From NCBI GenBank assembly GCA_027623325.1, contig JAQBXY010000003.1, forward strand, positions 124,001 through 188,000: a stretch of DNA of 64,000 nt. The letters are read 5' to 3'. The notes beneath the pieces were generated by a model, which did not search any database, had not been told where the DNA came from, and saw nothing but the letters and a program-made list of their open reading frames with translations. A program made the translations under genes and the position numbers. Shown in pieces: positions 2,587-36,382 of this stretch. How positions within the stretch are numbered: the first letter of the stretch is position 1; each line of letters starts with the position of its first letter. Source of the DNA: Gemmatimonadota bacterium (GTDB lineage Bacteria > Gemmatimonadota > Gemmatimonadetes > Longimicrobiales > Gaopeijiaceae).

Positions 2587-3948
2587 ATGTCTGACGTGCT
2601 GACGTTCATCGATGAGAACCTCGGTCGCTTTCGGGCCGAGCTCTACGACTTTCTGCGAATTCCGTCGATCAGCGCGAAGTCCGAACACGACGCGGACACC
2701 CGTGCAGCCGCAGAGTGGTTCTCGGAGCGCCTGCGAGAAGCGGGCCTCACCACGGAGACTCTGACCACTCCTGGCCACCCCATCGTCATCGGTGAATGGC
2801 AAGGCGCGGGTCCCGACGCGCCGACCGTCCTCATCTACGGTCACTACGACGTGCAGCCTCCTGAGCCACTAGAGCTGTGGACCTCTCCGCCCTTCGAACC
2901 AACCGAGCGCAATGGTCGCATCTATGCGCGCGGCTCGGCGGACGACAAGGGGCAGCTGTACATGCACGTGAAGGCACTCGAGGCGCATCTCGCGACCGGT
3001 AGCCAACTTCCGGTCAACGTTGTCGTGCTCGCGGAGGGAGAAGAGGAGGTCGGTTCACCCAACCTGGTGCCTTTCGTCGAGGCCAACCTCGAACGGCTCG
3101 CGTGTGATCTCGTGCTGATTTCGGACACGGGAATGTTCGCTGAAGGCCTCCCCTCGTTGCTGTTTTCGCTCCGCGGGCTCGCCTACTTCGAGATCCACGT
3201 GCACGGAGCACGGAGCGATCTGCACTCCGGGGAGTACGGCGGAGCTGTCAGGAATCCGGGGAATGCGCTCGCCCAGATCATCGCGTCGCTTCATGACTCC
3301 GACGGGCGCGTAGCTATCCCGGGCTTCTATGACGACGTCGTTGAGTGGGACGAGGAGACCCGCGCTCAGATCGCGGCTCTCCCGCACGTCGACGCCGACT
3401 TTGCGCGCGCGCTAGAGCTGGACGATCTCGCCGGCGAGTCTGGGTACGGCACGCTCGAGCGCCTCTGGATCCGGCCGACCTGCGACATCAACGGCATTCT
3501 TTGTGGCTACACGGGCGAGGGCGCCAAGACCGTCCTGCCGAACCACGCCCTGGCGAAAGTCAGCTTCCGCCTCGTTCCCGACCAGAACCCCGACCGTGTA
3601 AAGGGGCTCCTAGAGGCGCACCTCGCGGCGGTTGCTCCTACCGGCGTCACCGTCGAGATCCGAGAACTCCATGGTGGCCGCCCGTGGCGGGCGAGCGTTT
3701 CGGGACCGGCGTTCGAAGCCGCATCAGAGGCGCTGGAAGAGGCGTTCGGCACGAAGCCCGTTCCGATGGGTGGGGGAGGCTCGATCCCGATCGTCGTCGA
3801 GTTCGAGGAGAAGCTCGGGGCGACCGCCCTGCTCGTCGGCTTCTCGCTGCCCGGCTGCAATTTGCACGCCCCCGACGAGTGGCTGCCGATCGAGAACTAC
3901 GAGAAGGGCATTTCTGCCCTGGCCCTTCTTTACGGGAAGCTCGGGTAA
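2587..3948 (+). CDS. M20 family dipeptidase
   Basis: A 453-residue zinc metallopeptidase of the M20/ArgE/DapE/CPG2 superfamily, dipeptidase (carnosinase-like) branch, probably cytoplasmic because no signal peptide is seen. Metal and catalytic motifs are present in order: GHYDVQPP (about 84), GSADDKGQ (about 118), the catalytic-base region EGEEEVGSPN (about 150), SDTG (about 180) and the final histidine in GCNLHAPDEW near 430. The lid/dimerisation domain lies at about 205-320. The length is normal. The start at 2587 follows a purine-rich stretch. LysK, the LysW-pathway carboxypeptidase, is also M20, but this gene is 27 kb from lysW and has dipeptidase features, so I do not assign it that role. 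Confidence 0.9.
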   Translation: MSDVLTFIDENLGRFRAELYDFLRIPSISAKSEHDADTRAAAEWFSERLREAGLTTETLTTPGHPIVIGEWQGAGPDAPTVLIYGHYDVQPPEPLELWTSPPFEPTERNGRIYARGSADDKGQLYMHVKALEAHLATGSQLPVNVVVLAEGEEEVGSPNLVPFVEANLERLACDLVLISDTGMFAEGLPSLLFSLRGLAYFEIHVHGARSDLHSGEYGGAVRNPGNALAQIIASLHDSDGRVAIPGFYDDVVEWDEETRAQIAALPHVDADFARALELDDLAGESGYGTLERLWIRPTCDINGILCGYTGEGAKTVLPNHALAKVSFRLVPDQNPDRVKGLLEAHLAAVAPTGVTVEIRELHGGRPWRASVSGPAFEAASEALEEAFGTKPVPMGGGGSIPIVVEFEEKLGATALLVGFSLPGCNLHAPDEWLPIENYEKGISALALLYGKLG

Positions 3949-26620: not shown

Positions 26621-29053
26621 CTACCGTATCGGTCGCAGGTCGATCCGGCGCGCGGTGACTTCTTCGACCCGGTCGCGAGAGTAGAAGACCGGATGGAACT
26701 CGTCGTTCGCCCAACGTTCGAACAGGTTGCGATAGAAGGGAGATCGAACGTCACCGCTCTGCCCCGGCGTATTCATCCCAACCGCGCGGTCCCAGTCAGA
26801 GGTGTCGACAATGATCCGGAACGAGGCCCCCGACGTCTGGTTAGCTCCGTTGCCCGTCTGGTTCACCGTGGAACCGTACCCACCGCGAGCCTGCGGGCCG
26901 ACCTCGAACAATGCGCGCGTCTCCGCGTTCACTGCGGTGCCCAATGGATGACGGAGGTACGCGTGGTGATAGCCCGGACGGCCGAGCTCCCAGCCTGACG
27001 GGTCGGGTCCGAATCGCTGGCTGAGCGACGCGACCGTAGTCTCCAGAGCGCCGACCAACATGTGATCGCGAGCAGCCAGCGGATCGGATCCGAAGCTCCC
27101 GGGAGGGATGACCAGCGCCTCGATGACCTTCTGGAGGGAGAGGCCGAGGTCGACACCGTCCGGCACGAGCGCGTCACGGACCACTCGACGCAACTCCGCC
27201 TCCCACGTTACGTAGATGCCCGCTTCGACCGAGCGCTTGTCGAGTACGTGATCCCAGTCGAGTAATCGAAGGCGCGCCTCCTCTGCTTCACCACTGGCCG
27301 ACAGATCGTCGAGCAGTGGAACGAGCTGACGCGCCGGCAGCGACAACTCGTCGGTCTGCAGACGCATCATGTCCGCCATCGAGAATTGTCGGCCTCCGCC
27401 AAGAACCTCCGCGATCCTCGCCCACCGATACGGATCCGACCAACTGAAGCCGATCGCGTCCATGTACGGGTAGTCCCGCGGAATCAGGTCGTTGTTCGCA
27501 GTCGCGAAGTAGCCCTCCGGCGGGTTCACCGTATTCGGTTTCGCGGTAATCGGGAGATAACCGTCCCACTCATAACGCCCATCTCCAGGCACCGGGACGA
27601 GCCCGCTCCAGTTCCTGCGTACCGGCGCGATCCCCACCGCCTGCCAACCGATGGTCCCTTTCCGGTCGGCCCATATCATGTTCTCGCCAGGAATGTTGGA
27701 GTAGTTGGAGGCCTCCCGGAAGTCTTCCCAGGTCTCGGACTGGTCCATCCGAAGCGATGCGAGATATGGGGCCCCACCTACTTCCATCCAGGCCGCACGC
27801 ACCGCGTACGCGAGATTCCGGTCACGGTCCTCGAAGACAACCGGCCCGTGCCTCGTGTACTTCAGTTCTGCCGTGTGAGGTCGGGCTCCTTTCACCGGGA
27901 TCTCCTCAGTGAGGACCGTCATCGACTCCCACGCACCTCGGTAACGGTACTGGTTCGGCTGAGACGGGTTGGTCTCGTACACGTACAGATCTTCACCGTC
28001 CGTGGCGAACACGGTCAGGCCCCACGCCCCGAACTCGTTGTGGCCGATGGACACGCCCGGGAGGCTGGGCTCACCCCCTCCGATCACGTTCCAACCTGGA
28101 CCCACCAGGTGCACCCAGTACCGGAGCGACGGCGCACCCTGAGCGCGGTGCGGGTCGTTGGCCATGATGGGATATCCGCTCTCAGATCTGGATCCGCTCA
28201 CGACCCAGTTGTTCGAGCCGACGTCCTGGGCTTCGTCGTACGCGACCGTCCGACCGGCATCGGCCGCGCTCCGCTCCAGGGCAGCGAACGCCTCCTGATC
28301 CGCACGCCGGCCCGGGACGATATCCTCCGGCAGAAATCGGACGCTGGCTCGAAAGGCGTCGTACAAGCCGAGGATGTCCTCGGATAACGCTGCGCCGTCC
28401 AGCGCGGGATCCAGTTCCAGGAGCGGATCCCCGGGCCCAAAGCTGGACAGTGCCTTCACCGGCTCCGACCCGATCTGGGCTACGAGCCTGCCGGTGCTCA
28501 ACTCGGCGCCGATGTTTCCGAGCAATCCTTGATGGCGCGAAATGACGACGTCGGGCGTCCACAGGCCGGGGGTGATCCCGAGCAACTCGAACTCGAGCGT
28601 CAGGAGGGAGGGGTCGCGCGCGGTCTGGCCGATGTAGGCGTTGATACCATCGACGTACGCGTTGACGATGCCCACGCCGTTGTCGTGATAGTGGTTCAAC
28701 TCCTGGTCGAGATCTCGACGAAACTTGAAGAGCCGGGTCCCGATGTCTCGCTCGAGTTCGCGGGCACCGAGAATCTCTGAAACGGTGCCGGTGGCCTGCC
28801 GTCGCCAAAGCTCGAGCTGGAAGAGGCGATCGCGGGCCGCGTTCCAACCCTGAGCGAAGAACAGATCGTGCTCCGTCTGTGCATAGATGTGGCTGATGCC
28901 CCAGCGATCTACCAGAATCTCGACCGCCTGATCGAGGCCATCGATGTCGAGTCGTTCAGACTGCTGGGCACTAGCCGCGAGCGGCAGGAGCGCGAGGGCG
29001 GCTGCTGCGCCAAAGACGACCTGCTTGGATCCGATCGGCAGTCTCCCGATCAT
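26621..29053 (-). CDS. Penicillin acylase family amidase, exported
   Basis: An 810-residue precursor of the Ntn-hydrolase family S45, which cleaves acyl amides such as penicillins, acyl-homoserine lactones or N-acyl peptides. A Sec signal peptide ends around AASAQQ (residue 30). The alpha chain covers about 40-260. The autocatalytic cleavage site is before Ser280 in GSNNWVVSG, the nucleophile of the beta chain; NDPHR, GVSIGHNEFGAWGLT and the distal TANNDLIP asparagine region follow. All key elements are present. The ATG at 29053 overlaps the stop of the amidohydrolase gene (ATGA), so the two are coupled. Substrate unknown; beta-lactams are unlikely to be the natural one. Confidence 0.92.
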   Translation of the reverse strand: MIGRLPIGSKQVVFGAAAALALLPLAASAQQSERLDIDGLDQAVEILVDRWGISHIYAQTEHDLFFAQGWNAARDRLFQLELWRRQATGTVSEILGARELERDIGTRLFKFRRDLDQELNHYHDNGVGIVNAYVDGINAYIGQTARDPSLLTLEFELLGITPGLWTPDVVISRHQGLLGNIGAELSTGRLVAQIGSEPVKALSSFGPGDPLLELDPALDGAALSEDILGLYDAFRASVRFLPEDIVPGRRADQEAFAALERSAADAGRTVAYDEAQDVGSNNWVVSGSRSESGYPIMANDPHRAQGAPSLRYWVHLVGPGWNVIGGGEPSLPGVSIGHNEFGAWGLTVFATDGEDLYVYETNPSQPNQYRYRGAWESMTVLTEEIPVKGARPHTAELKYTRHGPVVFEDRDRNLAYAVRAAWMEVGGAPYLASLRMDQSETWEDFREASNYSNIPGENMIWADRKGTIGWQAVGIAPVRRNWSGLVPVPGDGRYEWDGYLPITAKPNTVNPPEGYFATANNDLIPRDYPYMDAIGFSWSDPYRWARIAEVLGGGRQFSMADMMRLQTDELSLPARQLVPLLDDLSASGEAEEARLRLLDWDHVLDKRSVEAGIYVTWEAELRRVVRDALVPDGVDLGLSLQKVIEALVIPPGSFGSDPLAARDHMLVGALETTVASLSQRFGPDPSGWELGRPGYHHAYLRHPLGTAVNAETRALFEVGPQARGGYGSTVNQTGNGANQTSGASFRIIVDTSDWDRAVGMNTPGQSGDVRSPFYRNLFERWANDEFHPVFYSRDRVEEVTARRIDLRPIR

Positions 29054-30723
29054 GCCTCGTACACCGTCCTGCCACCCACGACAGTGCGTACGATTTCGAT
29101 TTCCTTGATGCGGTCCGGGTCGACCTCGTACGGACTCTCGGCAAGTACCACGAAGTCACCCAGCTTCCCGGCGCTGATCGATCCCTTGTCGTTCTCTTCG
29201 AACGACGCGTGGGCCCCGTGCAACGTGCAGATCTTGAGCGCTTGATCGAGGGTGACTCTTTGACTCGGACCCCACACGCGACCCGCGAAGTCCTTGCGGG
29301 TCACCATCGACTGCAGCGCCATCAGGGGCTCGTAGGGCCCGGGACCATGGTCCGACGCCGGTGCGACCATGATGTCGTAGTCGAGGAACGACTTGTGGGC
29401 GAACATCCATTCCATCTTTTCCTCTCCGTACTCGATCCACTTCTCGCCGTGGTAGTGCGCGTACGTGTAAAAGGGCGCCGGAATAACGCCCCCGTCGGCG
29501 ATGCGACGAAGCAACGACGGATTCACGAGGGAGCAGTGTTCGATGCGATGGCGAGCATCAGGGCGGGGCCACTCGCGCTGCACTCGCTCGTAGGCGTTCA
29601 GCACCATATCGATGGTGACGTCGCCATTGGCGTGGATCGCGACCTGCCACCCGGCACGATGCGCCTCTTCGACCGACTCGTGGATCTGCTCCTGGGTCAT
29701 GGTCAGAATCCCGAAGTCGTCCGGCCGACCCGCGTACGGCGTGCTCATCGCCATCGTTCTCTCGGACGCCGAGCCGTCGGCGGCGAACTTGACCGGGCCC
29801 ACCCGGAGCCACTCGTCCCCAAACCCCGTGCGCACACCGCCGGCGTTCAACGCGGGAAACGAACCGCCACGAGCCATGAGGGACATCCGCAGGCTCAGAT
29901 CTCCGGATTCGCGCGCGTCCTGGAACGCGGTAAACGCGGTCGAATCCGTCCCCGCCTGATGAACCGACGTGAGGCCGGCTGCGTTCATGCTTCGGCAGAT
30001 CACCGCGACACCCTGAGCGCGATCCTCACGGGTCGACTCATTGGGCACGTCGAACGCGCCTCTCGCCCGCTCCGCAACCTTGCCGGTCAGCTCGCCGCCT
30101 TCGCGGTAGAAGTGTCCGCCGAACGGATCGGGGGTGTTTACCGTCACGCCGGCGATCTCGAACGCTCGCGAGTTGTACACGCCCGTGTGGCCCCCTCGGT
30201 GTCCGACAACGATGGGGTGCTCGGTGCTCACCGCATCCAGGTCGAGGCGATTCACGGGTCGACCCTCTTCCTGTTTGGTGTCGTCGTACATGAAGCCGAC
30301 GATCCACTCGCCCGGCGGCGTCAACGCGGCGCGCTCCCGCAGCGCGGCCTGGATTCGCGAGATGCTGCCCAGATTCGTATCCACGTTCTTCAGTTCGTTG
30401 AGCCCAGCACCCGACGGATGGGAGTGTGCGTCGATGAAGCCTGGCACCACCGTCGCTCCGGCTGCGTCGAACACCTGCGTATTCGTGGAGGCCAAGTTGC
30501 GAATGTCACTGGTGGAACCCACGGCCACGAAGCGCCCGCTCTTGATCGCGAAGGCTTCGGCGGTCGGCTGGGCGTCGTCCTGTGTCAGCACGCTCGCGTT
30601 TACCACGACAACGTCCGGGGTTACGGACAAGCCACCGGCGGACGATGGCGCGCACCCCGCGACCACCCCCGCAGTCGCGACAGTTCCGAGTCCGAGGAAG
30701 TCCCTTCGATTGATCTCACTCAT
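29050..30723 (-). CDS. Tat-exported amidohydrolase, YtcJ type
   Basis: A 557-residue metal-dependent hydrolase of the amidohydrolase superfamily, YtcJ/NfdA branch. The N-terminus has a Tat signal, NRRDFLGLGTVATAGVVAGC, which also ends in a lipobox cysteine, so it may be anchored as a lipoprotein. Metal motifs are VVPGFIDAHSHPSG (about 77-90), VGHRGGHTGVYNSRA, the carboxylated-lysine region VGPVKFAADGSASE, VAIHANGD and HRIEHCSL, with a late aspartate in MVAPASDHGPG. The ATG at 30723 is preceded by GGAG nine bases upstream and is preferred over the GTG or ATG farther out. It is coupled to the penicillin acylase gene and lies 84 bases after lysZ-lysJ. Confidence 0.9.
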   Translation of the reverse strand: MSEINRRDFLGLGTVATAGVVAGCAPSSAGGLSVTPDVVVVNASVLTQDDAQPTAEAFAIKSGRFVAVGSTSDIRNLASTNTQVFDAAGATVVPGFIDAHSHPSGAGLNELKNVDTNLGSISRIQAALRERAALTPPGEWIVGFMYDDTKQEEGRPVNRLDLDAVSTEHPIVVGHRGGHTGVYNSRAFEIAGVTVNTPDPFGGHFYREGGELTGKVAERARGAFDVPNESTREDRAQGVAVICRSMNAAGLTSVHQAGTDSTAFTAFQDARESGDLSLRMSLMARGGSFPALNAGGVRTGFGDEWLRVGPVKFAADGSASERTMAMSTPYAGRPDDFGILTMTQEQIHESVEEAHRAGWQVAIHANGDVTIDMVLNAYERVQREWPRPDARHRIEHCSLVNPSLLRRIADGGVIPAPFYTYAHYHGEKWIEYGEEKMEWMFAHKSFLDYDIMVAPASDHGPGPYEPLMALQSMVTRKDFAGRVWGPSQRVTLDQALKICTLHGAHASFEENDKGSISAGKLGDFVVLAESPYEVDPDRIKEIEIVRTVVGGRTVYEA

Positions 30724-30807
30724 GACCTGATCTCCGCGTGGCATGACCCGACCGGACAAACGTGCGGACTGATCCTACGCACGGGTGCCGGCCGTGGCCA
30801 GCGCCGA

Positions 30808-32835
30808 TCAGTCGTCGGTCGGACGATCCTCGGACAGGACGTCGAGCAGGATCGCACCGACCGCCTCGGCCTCCGCCGCCGTGATCACGAGCGGGGGCAG
30901 AAGTCGGAGTACGGTTCGACCGGCAGTCAGCGCGAGCACACCCCGCTCCTGCAACGCACTGACATAAGGCCGAGCCGGCACCTTGAGTTGGATTCCGATC
31001 ATCAGCCCGATTTGACGGACTTCCCGGACTACGGGGAGTCCGCCGTCCTGGATCGGCCGGCACATCCGAGCGCCTAAGCCATCCACCTCTGCCATCACCC
31101 CGCTGTCCAACAAGACGTCGAGCGTCGCCCGGCCCACGGCACAGGCGATCGGATTGCCCCCGAACGTCGACCCGTGCTCACCGACGCCGAGCCCGATTCC
31201 CGAGCGAACCACGGTAGCGCCCAGCGGCAATCCACCTGCAATGCTCTTGGCGAGACACAGAACGTCGGGGATCACGCCCGAATGCTCGAAAGCGAACAGA
31301 TGTCCCGTGCGACCAAAGCCCGTTTGCACCTCGTCGAAGACTAGGAGTGCACCGTGGGCGTCGCAGGCCGCGCGCGCTGCCCTCAAGAAGTCGGGGTCCG
31401 CGGCGTGGACGCCCCCCTCCCCTTGCACGGGCTCGAGTACGACGGCCGCGACCGAGGCGTCCACCACTCCCGCCAGCGCCTCGGGCTTGTTGAACGGAAT
31501 CCGCCTCACCTCACCGAGGAGTGGGCCGAAGGGATCCCTGTAGCGCGCTTCGGCGGTAATCGACAGAGCGCCCAGGGTACGGCCGTGGAAGCCCCGCATC
31601 GCCGCGACGAAGTCGGAGCGACCCGTATGGGCGCGCGCGATCTTGAGCGCCGCCTCGATCGCCTCGGTGCCGGAGTTGGAAAGAAAGGTCCGGTCGAGCT
31701 CCGGGGGCAGCGCCTCGTGGAGCCTCTCCAGGAGCCTCGTGCGCGGAGGGCTCCCGTAGGAGCCCGGGACGAACCAGATGCGGCTGGCCTGATCCACGAG
31801 AGCGGCCTCGAGCGCAGGGTGCCGATGCCCGAGCGCCAAGGCGCCATGCCCCCCGACGCAGTCGATGTACTCCCGCCCTTCGTCATCTCGGACCCGACAT
31901 CCGCTACCCGATACGAGCGTGATGCCTCGCTTGCCATAGACATCGAGTTCGTGCCTTGCCTGTCGTGACAGCCAACCCCCGGCATCCTCCGACGTCGCCG
32001 GGACTGGATCCGGGGGTGATCCCCCGTCCACGGCCCCACGAGTGATCAGCGTCCCGGCCCCACCCAGGGCGTCGGTGACCGGCCGCGCGCCACGCCCGTC
32101 ACTGATGCGGACGCGCGGACCCGGTGTCGCAGCGCGGTCGAACAAGGAGCGGAGCGCACGGATCTTTCTTCGCATGCGCCCATCGACCCGCTCTTCCCAC
32201 TCGGCGAGATCCGCAACTTCGACCGTACGCACCAACGTCGACGGGTCGTCACGGGAGACAAGAAGGCCGACCTCCTCGATGAGGGACACGACGTCCGTAG
32301 CCGCGAGTTCAGCTGACAGGAGTGCGAGCACCTCGTCGTTCTCCGTATTGAGCGCCGCGCCGTCCTCTCCCACGATAGGAACCGTGAGGACGGGCACGTA
32401 GCCGTCCGCCAGGAGTCCTCGGAGGAGCGTCCCATTGATCGACTTCGGCTTTCCGGACTGATCGCGGAGCAGGACCTTTCGGTCCCCCCGCTTTACGCGG
32501 ATGCCCTGGTTCTGCTCTCCGCGAACCAGGCCGCCGTCCAAGCCCGTAAGGCCGATCGCATCTACGCCCTGCTTACGCAGGGCCTCGACGATGCGCTTGT
32601 TCCGGATGCCCGCGTAGGCTGCCAGCAAGACATCGATCGCGTCGTCATCGGTCAGAACACTCGAGTAGCCCGACACCGACTCCACGACCTGCGACGGCCG
32701 TCCCAGATCCGTCGCCATTCGGTCGCGCAGCCTGTTCGCGCCATGAAGTACGACCAACGGTCGCTTCTGTCTCGACAAGTCGACCGCGACAACGTCGATA
32801 TCGAAGTCGCCACCGCCCAGCTTCACGATCAGCAT
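30808..32835 (-). CDS. Fused LysZ kinase and LysJ aminotransferase
   Basis: A 675-residue two-domain enzyme. Residues 1-260 are an amino-acid kinase of the LysZ/ArgB type: LIVKLGGG at the start, VVLHGANRLRDRM, AIGLTGLDGGLV, and NTENDEVLALLSAELAATDVV for nucleotide binding. A linker of about 50 residues follows. Residues 315-675 are a class III PLP aminotransferase of the LysJ/ArgD type, with SNSGTEAIEAALK, EPVQGEGGV, FDEVQTGFGRTG and the PLP lysine in LAKSIAGGLPLGA. In Thermus these activities are separate proteins acting on LysW-bound aminoadipate. The ATG at 32835 overlaps the stop of the amidotransferase-like gene by 7 bases. Both domains look catalytically complete. Confidence 0.93.
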   Translation of the reverse strand: MLIVKLGGGDFDIDVVAVDLSRQKRPLVVLHGANRLRDRMATDLGRPSQVVESVSGYSSVLTDDDAIDVLLAAYAGIRNKRIVEALRKQGVDAIGLTGLDGGLVRGEQNQGIRVKRGDRKVLLRDQSGKPKSINGTLLRGLLADGYVPVLTVPIVGEDGAALNTENDEVLALLSAELAATDVVSLIEEVGLLVSRDDPSTLVRTVEVADLAEWEERVDGRMRRKIRALRSLFDRAATPGPRVRISDGRGARPVTDALGGAGTLITRGAVDGGSPPDPVPATSEDAGGWLSRQARHELDVYGKRGITLVSGSGCRVRDDEGREYIDCVGGHGALALGHRHPALEAALVDQASRIWFVPGSYGSPPRTRLLERLHEALPPELDRTFLSNSGTEAIEAALKIARAHTGRSDFVAAMRGFHGRTLGALSITAEARYRDPFGPLLGEVRRIPFNKPEALAGVVDASVAAVVLEPVQGEGGVHAADPDFLRAARAACDAHGALLVFDEVQTGFGRTGHLFAFEHSGVIPDVLCLAKSIAGGLPLGATVVRSGIGLGVGEHGSTFGGNPIACAVGRATLDVLLDSGVMAEVDGLGARMCRPIQDGGLPVVREVRQIGLMIGIQLKVPARPYVSALQERGVLALTAGRTVLRLLPPLVITAAEAEAVGAILLDVLSEDRPTDD

Positions 32836-33503
32836 GCCATCTCCACCAGTGCCCGGGTCGTGAGGTTGGGGAGCGAGTCCCACTCCGGGCACACATCCAC
32901 CGTGGCAATGACCTCGGAAGAGATGAGCGTCGTGCGGGCCGACCCAGGGATCGATGCGGTGTGCAGCGTGAAGTACTCGGGATCTTCCGAGTACCGCGTA
33001 TTCACGAAGATGGAGCGACCGTCACTCACGAGGACGTTCAGAGCCCGTACGTAGTCCGTGCGCGTCGCGATCAGCTGATCGAGCCGGGATAGGGCGGCCA
33101 GTACATCCCCGTCCGCGGCTCGGGTGAAGCGATCGAGGAGATGGAATAGGCGCGCCGCCCCCGTCTCGCCAGGCACCGAGAGCCGGACCTCGCGGAGTTC
33201 CCCGTTGAAGGCGAACGCGAGGGCGCCGCCGAGAAAGGGCATGTTGTTCTCGACCACGATGCCTTCGTTACGAAACGCACTCCGCGCATGGACCAGAGCG
33301 AGCGACGTCGCCGGCACCTCGATCGTATCCTCCCAGATCGGGCGGATCGAACGGTATCGCTCCCAGCCATCGCCGGTCCACCAAGACACGCCCCAGCCGT
33401 GGCCCTGAAACTCCTTGCTCGCGCGACAACTCACGGCGAAGGCCTCGAGCCAGGGGACTACATCGACGGGCTGTGCGGCCTGGATGCCAAGGAGGCGACA
33501 CAT
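32829..33503 (-). CDS. Class II glutamine-amidotransferase-like Ntn hydrolase
   Basis: A 224-residue protein of the YafJ/EgtC group of class II glutamine amidotransferases. The N-terminal MCRLLG gives Cys2 as nucleophile after Met removal. Other active-site elements are HGWGVSWW (about 35-42), LVHARSAF with the substrate-carboxylate arginine (about 70), NNMPFLGGALAFAFNGEL with the oxyanion Asn-Gly (about 85-102) and LISSE near 194. No synthetase partner domain is fused or adjacent. It sits between lysY and the fused lysZ-lysJ, 6 bases after the former and overlapping the latter. EgtC-type enzymes hydrolyse gamma-glutamyl amides, the same bond that links substrates to LysW, so a product-releasing role is likely (inference). 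Confidence 0.88.
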   Translation of the reverse strand: MCRLLGIQAAQPVDVVPWLEAFAVSCRASKEFQGHGWGVSWWTGDGWERYRSIRPIWEDTIEVPATSLALVHARSAFRNEGIVVENNMPFLGGALAFAFNGELREVRLSVPGETGAARLFHLLDRFTRAADGDVLAALSRLDQLIATRTDYVRALNVLVSDGRSIFVNTRYSEDPEYFTLHTASIPGSARTTLISSEVIATVDVCPEWDSLPNLTTRALVEMAC

Positions 33504-33509
33504 GTTCGG

Positions 33510-34547
33510 TCAGATGGGGTGAAGGCCAGGGAAGCCAAGCCCCGTCCGTTCGTCCCACCCCATCATGATGTTCATGGCCTGAATCGCCTGCCCTGCGGAG
33601 CCGCGAACCAGATTGTCGATCGCCGACACGACGACCAGTCGCTCCGACGCGGCGTCCAGTTCGAAGCCGATGTCACAGAAGTTGGTCCCTGCCAGCAGCT
33701 TCGGCTCTGGAAGGCGGTAGGGGCCACTCCGCTCCGAGACGAGTCGGACGAAGGGCTCGTCGGCGTACCGACTGCGTAGAATTTTCCAGATGTCTTTTTC
33801 GGTTAGCCGTTCCGACAGAAAGACGTGCGACAGCGCGGCGGCACCACGCACCATGTCGATCGCCGAGACGCTTAGATGTACTCGCGCGGCCCCGGAACGT
33901 CCCAACACCGCTTCGATTTCGGCCGTGTGGCGATGACCGGTCGCTTTGTAGGGTCGCACGACGCCGCTACGGACCGGGTGGTGTGAGCCTTCGTTGGACT
34001 GCGCCCCGGCCTCGCTGGAACCGACCTTCACATCGATGACGGTCCGATCCCGATGCACGACATCAGCCTCGTAGAGCGGCAGCAGAGCGAGAATCGAAAC
34101 GGTGGCGTTGCACCCCCCGGTTGAGACCCTGGTCGATGTCCTGATCTCCTCACGGTTCACCTCAGCCAGACCGTACGTGAACGTCGGCAAGAGGTCGGGG
34201 CGCTTATGCGGCCCGTAGTGCTGCGAGTAGATCTCCGGATCATCGAGGCGGAAGTCCGCGCTCATATCGATGAATCGCTCGGCGCGCGATGACAGACTGT
34301 CCCACTGACTCGACGCCTCGCCATGCGGGAGAGCAAGAAAGAGCAGGTCGCACCCCGTCACCTCGTCGGGATCACAAAAACGAAGGTCAGTCGCGCCGCG
34401 AAGGTTCGGGTGCGCACGGGTCACCGGTTTGCCGGCGAGGCTCCGAGAAGAGATCGCCGATACGGTGACTTCGGGATGCGCGAGCAGAAGACGGAGTAGC
34501 TCGCCGCCGCCGTAGCCCGATCCTCCGAGTATGGAAGCTCGGATCAT
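33510..34547 (-). CDS. lysY: LysW-aminoadipyl/glutamyl phosphate reductase
   Basis: A 345-residue NADPH-dependent semialdehyde-forming reductase of the ArgC/LysY family. It reduces the acyl phosphate made by the LysZ kinase domain. The N-terminal nucleotide fold begins SILGGSGYGGGELLRLL. The catalytic cysteine lies in VSTGGCNATVSILALLPL (about 134-151). The second domain has VIDVKVGSSEAGAQSNEGSHHPVRSG-type segments near 170-195 with conserved histidines. ATG at 34547 overlaps the lysX stop (ATGA). Sequence alone does not tell an ArgC from a LysY; the LysW context makes LysY the better name, and one enzyme may serve both lysine and arginine. Confidence 0.9.
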   Translation of the reverse strand: MIRASILGGSGYGGGELLRLLLAHPEVTVSAISSRSLAGKPVTRAHPNLRGATDLRFCDPDEVTGCDLLFLALPHGEASSQWDSLSSRAERFIDMSADFRLDDPEIYSQHYGPHKRPDLLPTFTYGLAEVNREEIRTSTRVSTGGCNATVSILALLPLYEADVVHRDRTVIDVKVGSSEAGAQSNEGSHHPVRSGVVRPYKATGHRHTAEIEAVLGRSGAARVHLSVSAIDMVRGAAALSHVFLSERLTEKDIWKILRSRYADEPFVRLVSERSGPYRLPEPKLLAGTNFCDIGFELDAASERLVVVSAIDNLVRGSAGQAIQAMNIMMGWDERTGLGFPGLHPI

Positions 34548-35428
34548 CGAGCCACAGCTGCCCGCTGTGCGAACTGCTCCAACACGAAGTCCGCAACGAA
34601 GCCGGGAATGTCGACACCCGTGGTAGCGACCGAATTTCGAAACTCCATCGTCCCGTTGACCTCGTTTACGAGATACCCTTCGTCCGTTTCGAAGACGTCG
34701 ACCGCGACCGCGCCGCTGCCCACCGCAGCCGCCGCGGCTTCCGAGACCCGCTTGAGCTCCGGATCGAGCGTGAGACCGGTCGCCTTCCCGCCGAGAGCCG
34801 TATTGGTCTTCCAGCCCGCCGAGGTCCGTGCGATGGCAGCAATGCAGCGATCGTGCACGACGAACGAGCGAATATCCCGCCCTCCGGTGGGTACGAAGCG
34901 TTGGAGGTACGTCACCGAGTGAGGGGCACCGCCGAGCGCCTCCTTGTGATCGAGCGCGAGATCCAAGGCGTCCGCATCGTTCACCTTTCCGATCAGCCGT
35001 CCCCAGGAACCGATCACGGGCTTCACGACGAGGGGATACCCAACACCCTCCGCGGCCAGGGCCCCACTCTCCTGCGAGAAGGCGATCGACGCGCTCAGGG
35101 TCGGCACTCCGGCACCCAAGAGCGCGAGCGTCGTGAGCACCTTGTCTCCGCACGTCTCGAGCACTCGGCTCGCATTCACGGGCTGGGCGCCCAGGCTTTC
35201 GAGCCAGTGGGCGATCGCGACGTTTCGCCAATGCCCCTTGGAGCGCAAAAGGACGGCGTCCACGCGGGGGAATCCCGCGGGCCACGAGGAGAGGTCCCCG
35301 TGAATGGTCCGGTCATCGATGACGTGCAGTTCGACGTTCCGCGCCGCGAACGCCTCGGCCAACATGCGCTCTTCCGCCCGGACGCCGGTGCACACCATCC
35401 CCACGGCCGGCGAGCCGGGAGTGTTCAT
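34544..35428 (-). CDS. lysX: LysW ligase (ATP-grasp), LysX type
   Basis: A 294-residue ATP-grasp ligase of the RimK/LysX family. It would join the alpha-amino group of aminoadipate (or glutamate) to the gamma-carboxyl of the LysW C-terminal glutamate. ATP-grasp features are CGDKVLTTLALLGAGVP (about 107-123), YPLVVKPVIGSWGRLIGKV (about 142-160) and the magnesium-binding end FETDEGYLVNEVNGTMEFRN (about 245-264), followed by TTGVDIPGFV, a hallmark of LysX proteins. It starts 7 bases after the lysW stop and overlaps lysY. Whether it accepts aminoadipate, glutamate or both cannot be read from this sequence. Confidence 0.94.
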   Translation of the reverse strand: MNTPGSPAVGMVCTGVRAEERMLAEAFAARNVELHVIDDRTIHGDLSSWPAGFPRVDAVLLRSKGHWRNVAIAHWLESLGAQPVNASRVLETCGDKVLTTLALLGAGVPTLSASIAFSQESGALAAEGVGYPLVVKPVIGSWGRLIGKVNDADALDLALDHKEALGGAPHSVTYLQRFVPTGGRDIRSFVVHDRCIAAIARTSAGWKTNTALGGKATGLTLDPELKRVSEAAAAAVGSGAVAVDVFETDEGYLVNEVNGTMEFRNSVATTGVDIPGFVADFVLEQFAQRAAVAR

Positions 35429-35435
35429 CGCAGAG

Positions 35436-35618
35436 CTACTCTCCCCAGTCCTCGGCCGACATCGGGGCCTCGCGCACTTCGATAGCCGGGGTGAGCTGCG
35501 TTACCTCGAGCTCCGAACCGCATTCGTCACAGTCGAGGAGCTCCCCCATCATCGCGTCACCCGGTACACCGACCATTCCTGCGCACACCGGACACTCGGT
35601 CGCGACGGCAACACTCAT
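35436..35618 (-). CDS. lysW: Amino-group carrier protein LysW
   Basis: A 60-residue acidic carrier protein. A zinc ribbon is formed by CPVC (residues 9-12) and CDEC (about 30-33). The C-terminus is EDWGE, the invariant end of LysW; the gamma-carboxyl of the last glutamate carries the amino-acid intermediate during lysine (and in some organisms ornithine) synthesis. The ATG at 35618 has GGAG/GGAAG upstream and gives the normal length; a GTG 18 bases earlier is also open. It is the first gene of the minus-strand operon and shares a 122-base control region with the divergent ACT-domain gene. Confidence 0.96.
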   Translation of the reverse strand: MSVAVATECPVCAGMVGVPGDAMMGELLDCDECGSELEVTQLTPAIEVREAPMSAEDWGE

Positions 35619-35740: not shown

Positions 35741-36382
35741 ATGATCAAAGTAGCCGATGCGGTCCGTGACGTCGTGGACAACGACCCCGCACTGAAGACG
35801 GGGCTCGCCCAGGACCTTCTCAACCTGACGAAGGTCGCTCGGCACATTCATTCCACCGTCGAAGCCAGAACCCAAAAGAGCGTCCAACTCGGGGCGATCA
35901 CGATGGCCCTCTCACGACTGCGCTCGGATCTTCCGTCCTTCGAGGCGGCTTCGAAGCTCCGCCTTGCGGACCGGATCACGGTGCAACGGGGCCTCGTCGT
36001 ACTCACCTTCCCCAACACGGACCGGGTGCATACAGGACTACTGAAGCTCCAGGAGAAGATCCGTGGCGCGCGCCGGTACCTCACCATCACAGAAGGCATC
36101 CGCGAGATTACACTGATCATCGAGCAGGCCATGCTCGACAGTGTGGCCGAGTCCGTGGGCGAACGCCCGGCGCGGGTGGCGCGCAACATCGCCAGTCTCT
36201 CGGTGTCGCTGACCGAGGCGAATCTCTCCGAGCCAGGGGTGCTCTATCGGCTGCTGCAGCCGCTCGCCCTCCAGGGGGTCGCGCTCGCCGAGGTCGCCTC
36301 GACGACGAAGGAGTTCCACGTCTATCTCGCCGAACGAGACGTGATGCTGGCCCTGGATTCGCTCTACGGCGCGTTCCGTTGA
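35741..36382 (+). CDS. ACT-domain protein, likely regulator of the lys operon
   Basis: A 213-residue protein. The C-terminal 65 residues (about 148-213) form an ACT-like domain: LSVSLTEANLSEPGVLYRLL, then GVALAEVASTTKEFHVYL and a final helix, as in the amino-acid-sensing domains of aspartate kinase. Residues 1-60 are helical, with KSVQLGAITMALSRLR, and could be a DNA-binding helix-turn-helix of the kind seen in archaeal and thermophile regulators with ACT domains. The middle (60-145) may be another small ligand fold. It is divergent from lysW, so end-product control of the lys operon is the simplest role. This is inference; binding was not testable here. Confidence 0.72.
   Translation: MIKVADAVRDVVDNDPALKTGLAQDLLNLTKVARHIHSTVEARTQKSVQLGAITMALSRLRSDLPSFEAASKLRLADRITVQRGLVVLTFPNTDRVHTGLLKLQEKIRGARRYLTITEGIREITLIIEQAMLDSVAESVGERPARVARNIASLSVSLTEANLSEPGVLYRLLQPLALQGVALAEVASTTKEFHVYLAERDVMLALDSLYGAFR

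Follow-up and report, generated by a model that had tools for sequence, protein, structure and literature searches.

In the LysW pathways the product is built on a carrier protein, and in characterised systems it is the last glutamate of the C-terminal EDWGE of LysW that bears the growing product (PMC10433800). These pathways are annotated with LysK (TIGR01902, NF003367), a metal-dependent enzyme of the M20 fold whose gene lies after lysJ, as the step that releases the product from this glutamate, so that a genome lacking LysK gives the impression of a broken pathway or of auxotrophy. Members of the class II amidotransferase superfamily are known from other settings. EgtC (4zfj, 4zfk, 4zfl), a Cys2 enzyme of ergothioneine biosynthesis, hydrolyses a small-molecule gamma-glutamyl amide with an amino acid as the leaving group. 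The YafJ-type putative amidotransferases (1te5, 3mdn) share their Pfam family and core motifs with the protein described here, and differ from it in keeping the GxTDSE motif and in having no known tie to lysW. In yeast glutathione degradation another member of the superfamily, Dug3, acts on a small-molecule substrate, outside LysW operons and in complex with Dug2, which is itself an M20-type protein. The Dug2-Dug3 complex cleaves the gamma-glutamyl-amino-acid bond of glutathione, giving glutamate and Cys-Gly (PMC6508711).

Here we analyse a locus of a Gemmatimonadota genome in which the gene for a class II amidotransferase (GATase) stands inside a LysW operon, between lysY and lysZ. We propose that its product, a cysteine Ntn hydrolase, is very probably the releasing enzyme of the pathway, working in place of the zinc carboxypeptidase LysK.

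An amidotransferase gene within a LysW operon

The window, by which we mean the whole stretch of 64,000 nucleotides that was analysed, carries on its minus strand an operon in the order lysW-lysX-lysY-GATase-lysZJ, in which the GATase gene is the fourth and lysK is missing (Table 1). Pfam and NCBIfam support the assignment of each of lysW (with its EDWGE terminus), lysX, lysY, lysZ and lysJ. The lysX and lysY genes overlap by 4 bp, lysY and the GATase gene lie 6 bp apart, and the GATase and lysZJ genes overlap by 7 bp (ATGCTGA); since the genes from lysX onwards overlap or nearly touch, their translation is probably coupled.

Table 1. Features of the window, with positions counted from its first letter
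Feature	Position	Strand	Description
lysW	35436..35618	-	amino-group carrier protein, 60 aa, two CxxC pairs, C-terminus EDWGE
lysX	34544..35428	-	ATP-grasp ligase loading Glu or AAA onto LysW; best PDB match Thermus LysX (3vpd)
lysY/argC-like	33510..34547	-	LysW-gamma-acyl-phosphate reductase; ATG overlaps lysX stop
GATase	32829..33503	-	224 aa, start MCRLLG; class II amidotransferase (Ntn-hydrolase) fold; proposed LysW-gamma-amino-acid hydrolase
GATase key residues	Cys2, Arg74, Asn100-Gly101, Gly115		Cys2 as predicted nucleophile, Gly115 at the Asp position; from sequence alignment
lysZ-lysJ fusion	30808..32835	-	kinase and class III aminotransferase (AA_kinase + Aminotran_3); ATG overlaps GATase stop
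Divergent gene	35741..36382	+	apparent ACT domain, no NCBIfam match; beside lysW in relatives
amidohydrolase_3 gene and large penicillin-amidase gene	26621-30759	-	downstream of lysZJ; the penicillin amidase is another Ntn hydrolase
M20 gene	about 2588-3946	+	dipeptidase (NF006053, 542 bits)

The GATase protein passes the Pfam profile GATase_4 with 30.8 bits against a gathering score of 23. This is its sole Pfam match, and the M20 metallopeptidase profile expected of a LysK is not matched. The nearest NCBIfam model is that of EgtC, at 40 bits against a cut-off of 218.65, which leaves the protein outside the EgtC equivalog family. Among 55 aligned sequences (this protein and 54 orthologs) EgtC was likewise the only NCBIfam model matched (best E 2e-17), and no curated NCBI family among the NCBIfam models covers these GATases. 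For five orthologs an in-frame TGA had been reported, which hinted at selenocysteine; each of these is simply the ordinary stop codon that ends the gene. A sequence-only reading of this DNA had described the open reading frame as an EgtC/YafJ-type class II amidotransferase with Cys2 and no synthetase partner, within an operon of lysW, lysX, lysY and lysZ-lysJ without lysK. The frame is indeed present on the minus strand and the description holds, the type being given by the GATase_4 match together with EgtC as nearest model and best fold match, and the lack of a partner by a single-domain protein, free of any synthetase domain, in an operon that otherwise holds only lysW, lysX, lysY and lysZJ.

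Two further features of the neighbourhood were observed. The divergent gene beside lysW may encode an amino-acid-sensing regulator of the operon, and it is kept beside lysW both in relatives of the genus and at five loci of other groups. Downstream of lysZJ and on the same strand lie the amidohydrolase_3 and penicillin-amidase genes.

Linkage to lysW and distribution of LysK

Within the genus, a GATase ortholog occurs in exactly the three genomes that have lysX, with the same operon gene order in each, and is absent where lysX is absent. Across the phylum it was found in 40 of 395 genomes, all 40 of which have lysW; the two genes share a contig within about 3 kb in 35 of the 40, contig ends interrupt the operon in three further genomes, and in one (G187) the GATase gene stands apart from lysWXY. 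Seven phylum genomes have a lysW match (E below 1e-8) without the GATase. Three of these carry the full operon lysW-X-Y-Z-J-K, with a LysK over the cut-off 4-5 kb from lysW, and they are, among the 395, both the only lysW-lysX genomes without the GATase and the only ones with a LysK over the cut-off; in one of them (G050) LysK also passes the '[LysW]-lysine hydrolase' model (NF003367, 390 bits against 363). The remaining four of the seven lack a lysX operon and were not counted as LysW operons missing a releasing enzyme: in three the LysW-like matches come without lysX or the rest of the operon, and the fourth (G335) showed no operon match. Lone LysW-like proteins without lysX were thus seen in three related genomes.

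Counted over the 43 phylum genomes with a LysW operon, the GATase is present in 40, LysK in 3, both in none and neither in none (Fisher P 8e-5, a value that ignores kinship), with the operon layout inspected directly in some 25 sampled GATase genomes. No LysK over the cut-off was found in any of 41 phylum GATase genomes, and the same search does detect LysK at that level in 4 of 14 control genomes. The checks proposed in the sequence-only reading, a conserved linkage to lysW and an anti-correlation with lysK, therefore both came out in its favour, LysK occurring only where the GATase is absent and never together with it in the genomes examined. The three LysK-bearing genomes form one clade and share a family with four GATase genomes. 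Their LysX and LysY nest inside the GATase-type tree beside a Myxococcota operon with 96% support, in a tree built without a Thermus or archaeal outgroup, which gives no direction for the swap. That the LysK form is confined to three genomes of the phylum, all of one clade, counts against a replacement of LysK by the GATase.

The analysed genome itself was searched for a lysK outside the operon, a finding that the sequence-only reading had named as speaking against its own proposal. No protein reaches the family cut-off of 163.1 bits (TIGR01902), the best scoring 63.5 bits in a search of the whole genome and 89 bits when the M20 proteins were scored, and on the '[LysW]-lysine hydrolase' model the best M20 protein of the genome scores 97 bits against the cut-off of 363. 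There are 29 M20-family matches in the genome, and ten of these proteins, identified singly, include an amidohydrolase, dipeptidases, an allantoate-type hydrolase, a YgeY-like hydrolase and a generic ArgE/DapE deacylase over its cut-off (TIGR01910, 223 bits). The M20 gene of the window was also considered as a LysK, and was ruled out as a dipeptidase. With so many M20 genes present, one conceivable alternative is that the deacylase passing the general DapE-ArgE cut-off, encoded away from the operon, frees the product and leaves the GATase to another task such as clearing misattached amino acids from LysW, and a DapE/ArgE-like M20 gene is found beside argH in several GATase genomes. We regard this as unlikely, since no M20 protein of the genome reaches the LysK models, none is encoded in the operon, and a proofreading role would leave the mutual exclusion of GATase and LysK unexplained.

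The association of the GATase with the LysW operon extends beyond the phylum. A scan of one genome per species (84,980 species) yielded 258 relatives, of which the best 80 were kept. These best 80 come from at least 10 phyla, including Gemmatimonadota, Calditrichota, Ignavibacteriota, Pseudomonadota and Acidobacteriota, with Myxococcota, Planctomycetota, Bacteroidota, Binatota and Woesearchaeota among the further groups, as well as KSB1 and Aminicenantes by record title. The GATase gene stands beside lysX, lysY, lysZ or lysJ in 80 of these 80, and lysK is beside it at none of the 80 loci; upstream, the distance to lysY stays within 200 bp at 72 of 75 loci, as does the downstream distance to lysZ at 77 of 77. 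The neighbours that would mark an EgtC, egtB and egtD, are absent from the window operon. A whole-genome search of 50 genomes from the best-80 set found a LysK over the cut-off in none, in a sample that was picked through the GATase and so gives no frequency of LysK use in other phyla. Distances among the GATases correlate with those of LysX and LysY (Mantel r 0.87, with 0 of 2000 permutations as high), as expected of an operon inherited as a unit.

Some loci carry additional genes. An amidase-signature enzyme is common to six of them, and in one lies directly upstream of lysW (L163:4750-5835). In a KSB1 operon (L178) a second lysX-like gene is placed between lysY and the GATase gene, and its specificity region reads EFKSIF as against EFKNSV.

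Predicted fold and active site

The AlphaFold model of the GATase (pLDDT 94.1) has EgtC chains as its thirteen best PDB matches (E 1.8e-12, TM about 0.73), among them that of the C2A mutant in complex with the gamma-glutamyl amide that is its natural substrate (4zfl), and GlmS and PurF also match it by fold. Together with the profile score and a Cys2 following Met in 81 of 81 sequences, this places the protein in the Ntn/GATase_4 superfamily. Identity with EgtC is only about 22%. Moreover, ten residues are invariant in the 81 sequences, namely Cys2, Arg3, His72, Arg74, Asn100, Gly101, Glu102, Gly112, Gly115 and Ala116. Of these, Gly115 replaces the Asp found in YafJ (1te5), 3mdn, EgtC and three paralogs (L022-L024), the motif being GRIGAEK or a variant here, GETDSE in 1te5, GSTDSE in 3mdn, STVDSA in EgtC, and GCSDAE and GASDSE in the paralogs.

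In GlmS and PurF, free glutamine is held by its alpha-amino group through the Asp of the GxTDSE motif. Most class II amidotransferases of known function act on free glutamine, and the GATase might accordingly be an ordinary glutaminase that supplies ammonia to a partner enzyme, or a regulator of nitrogen flow into the pathway. The Asp that would hold the alpha-amino group is, however, missing from all 81 sequences, the operon encodes no ammonia-using synthetase, and we know of no step in the established LysW pathway that uses ammonia. At the same time, the GATase excludes LysK, which a glutaminase would not do, and we consider this explanation extremely improbable.

The residues that are kept point instead to LysW. 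Arg74 of the GATase aligns with Arg73 of PurF, which pairs with the alpha-carboxylate of glutamine analogues through a salt bridge (PMC7953260). Judging from the alignment to enzymes of known structure, Arg74 probably binds the alpha-carboxylate of the substrate and Asn100-Gly101 would be the oxyanion pair. In a glutamate at the C-terminus of a protein the alpha-carboxylate is free and the alpha-amino group is not, so that a retained Arg combined with a change of Asp to Gly would fit such a substrate. This pattern, with Cys2, Arg and Asn-Gly kept and the Asp lost throughout, adds support that the sequence-only reading did not have.

EgtC (4zfl) and Dug2-Dug3 (PMC6508711) cut between a gamma-glutamyl group and the amino acid that is attached to it through its alpha-amino group. 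A bond of this type is also present in LysW-gamma-ornithine and LysW-gamma-lysine, and the simplest reading is a release through a Cys2 thioester. After removal of Met1, Cys2 would attack the gamma-amide that joins the LysW C-terminal glutamate to the product's alpha-amino group; the free amino acid would depart, a gamma-glutamyl thioester would stay on the enzyme, and its hydrolysis by water would give back LysW with a free gamma-carboxylate. In this scheme Arg74 would grip the free alpha-carboxylate of the LysW C-terminus, Asn100-Gly101 would form the oxyanion hole, and Gly115 would leave space for the peptide bond tying the C-terminal glutamate to the rest of LysW. Unlike EgtC, which keeps the Asp and acts on a small molecule, the GATase would thus have a carrier protein as its substrate. 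The GATase is itself net acidic (-7) and so shows no general basic surface to receive the acidic LysW, which speaks against this role. Nevertheless, operon, phyletic pattern, predicted fold and residue conservation together strongly suggest a releasing function, and the idea that the GATase is a releasing enzyme unrelated to LysK, put forward in the sequence-only reading, is backed by the linkage, the exclusion of LysK and the active-site pattern.

Product of the pathway and wider meaning

The analysed genome has lysA (483 bits) and a cluster argR-argG-argH, and lacks argJ. Its lysine therefore probably comes from diaminopimelate, and ornithine for arginine, rather than lysine, is the most likely output of the LysW operon. 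In other phyla, operons that contain a homocitrate-synthase-like gene, found after lysW in 15 of the 80 loci (best 80 of 258), probably make lysine; between the presence of homocitrate synthase in the operon and that of lysA in the genome there is only a weak negative association (Fisher P 0.09). The N-S motif of LysX, shared with Thermus LysX, was considered as a sign of aminoadipate and discarded, since it does not differ between operons that have homocitrate synthase and those that lack it. In eight GATase genomes a DapE/ArgE-like M20 gene lies directly beside argH, perhaps as part of a second, acylated ornithine route.

On the other hand, lysA, argJ and argH are all over the cut-off in 15 of 50 GATase genomes outside the phylum sample, and in these neither the lysine nor the arginine pathway accounts for the product of the LysW operon. 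Several gammaproteobacterial loci, L150, L152, L163 and L164 among them, combine the LysW-GATase operon with all three genes. The operon is then not obviously needed for lysine or arginine, and Dug2-Dug3 is able to transfer gamma-glutamyl groups (PMC6508711), which could suggest that the GATase is a transferase, handing either the gamma-glutamyl group of LysW or the completed amino acid to an acceptor other than water, with a conjugate or a third product as a possible result in some lineages. We judge this very unlikely, because the relatives' loci showed no conserved partner gene other than lysWXYZJ and the pathway of the analysed genome is most likely a source of ornithine, which needs hydrolysis only. 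Returning to the GATase as a releasing hydrolase, a broader proposal can be made tentatively, and we hold it to be possible though somewhat doubtful: that a cysteine Ntn hydrolase family present in at least 10 phyla was retuned, by loss of the Asp, for the gamma-glutamyl group at a carrier-protein C-terminus, and that it yields a third amino acid product in lineages with complete lysine and arginine pathways, such as many Gammaproteobacteria.

We found no prior report relevantly linking LysW with an amidotransferase in the open-access literature, most subscription journals being outside the search. What appears to be new, as the evidence strongly suggests, is a releasing enzyme for a known pathway, drawn from a known superfamily. 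If this is true, many uncultured lineages and some cultured ones, including a strain of Acanthopleuribacter pedis found among the GATase matches, would regain a complete lysine or ornithine pathway, and a subfamily of class II amidotransferases that lacks a curated NCBI model would acquire a function. It would also be a clear case of two unrelated enzymes serving one biosynthetic step, and the Asp-to-Gly change offers a simple test of how a fold suited to small gamma-glutamyl compounds came to act on the C-terminus of a protein. Bacteria of many phyla that make arginine or lysine on LysW appear to free the product with a cysteine enzyme, which seems to be a second, overlooked solution to its release.
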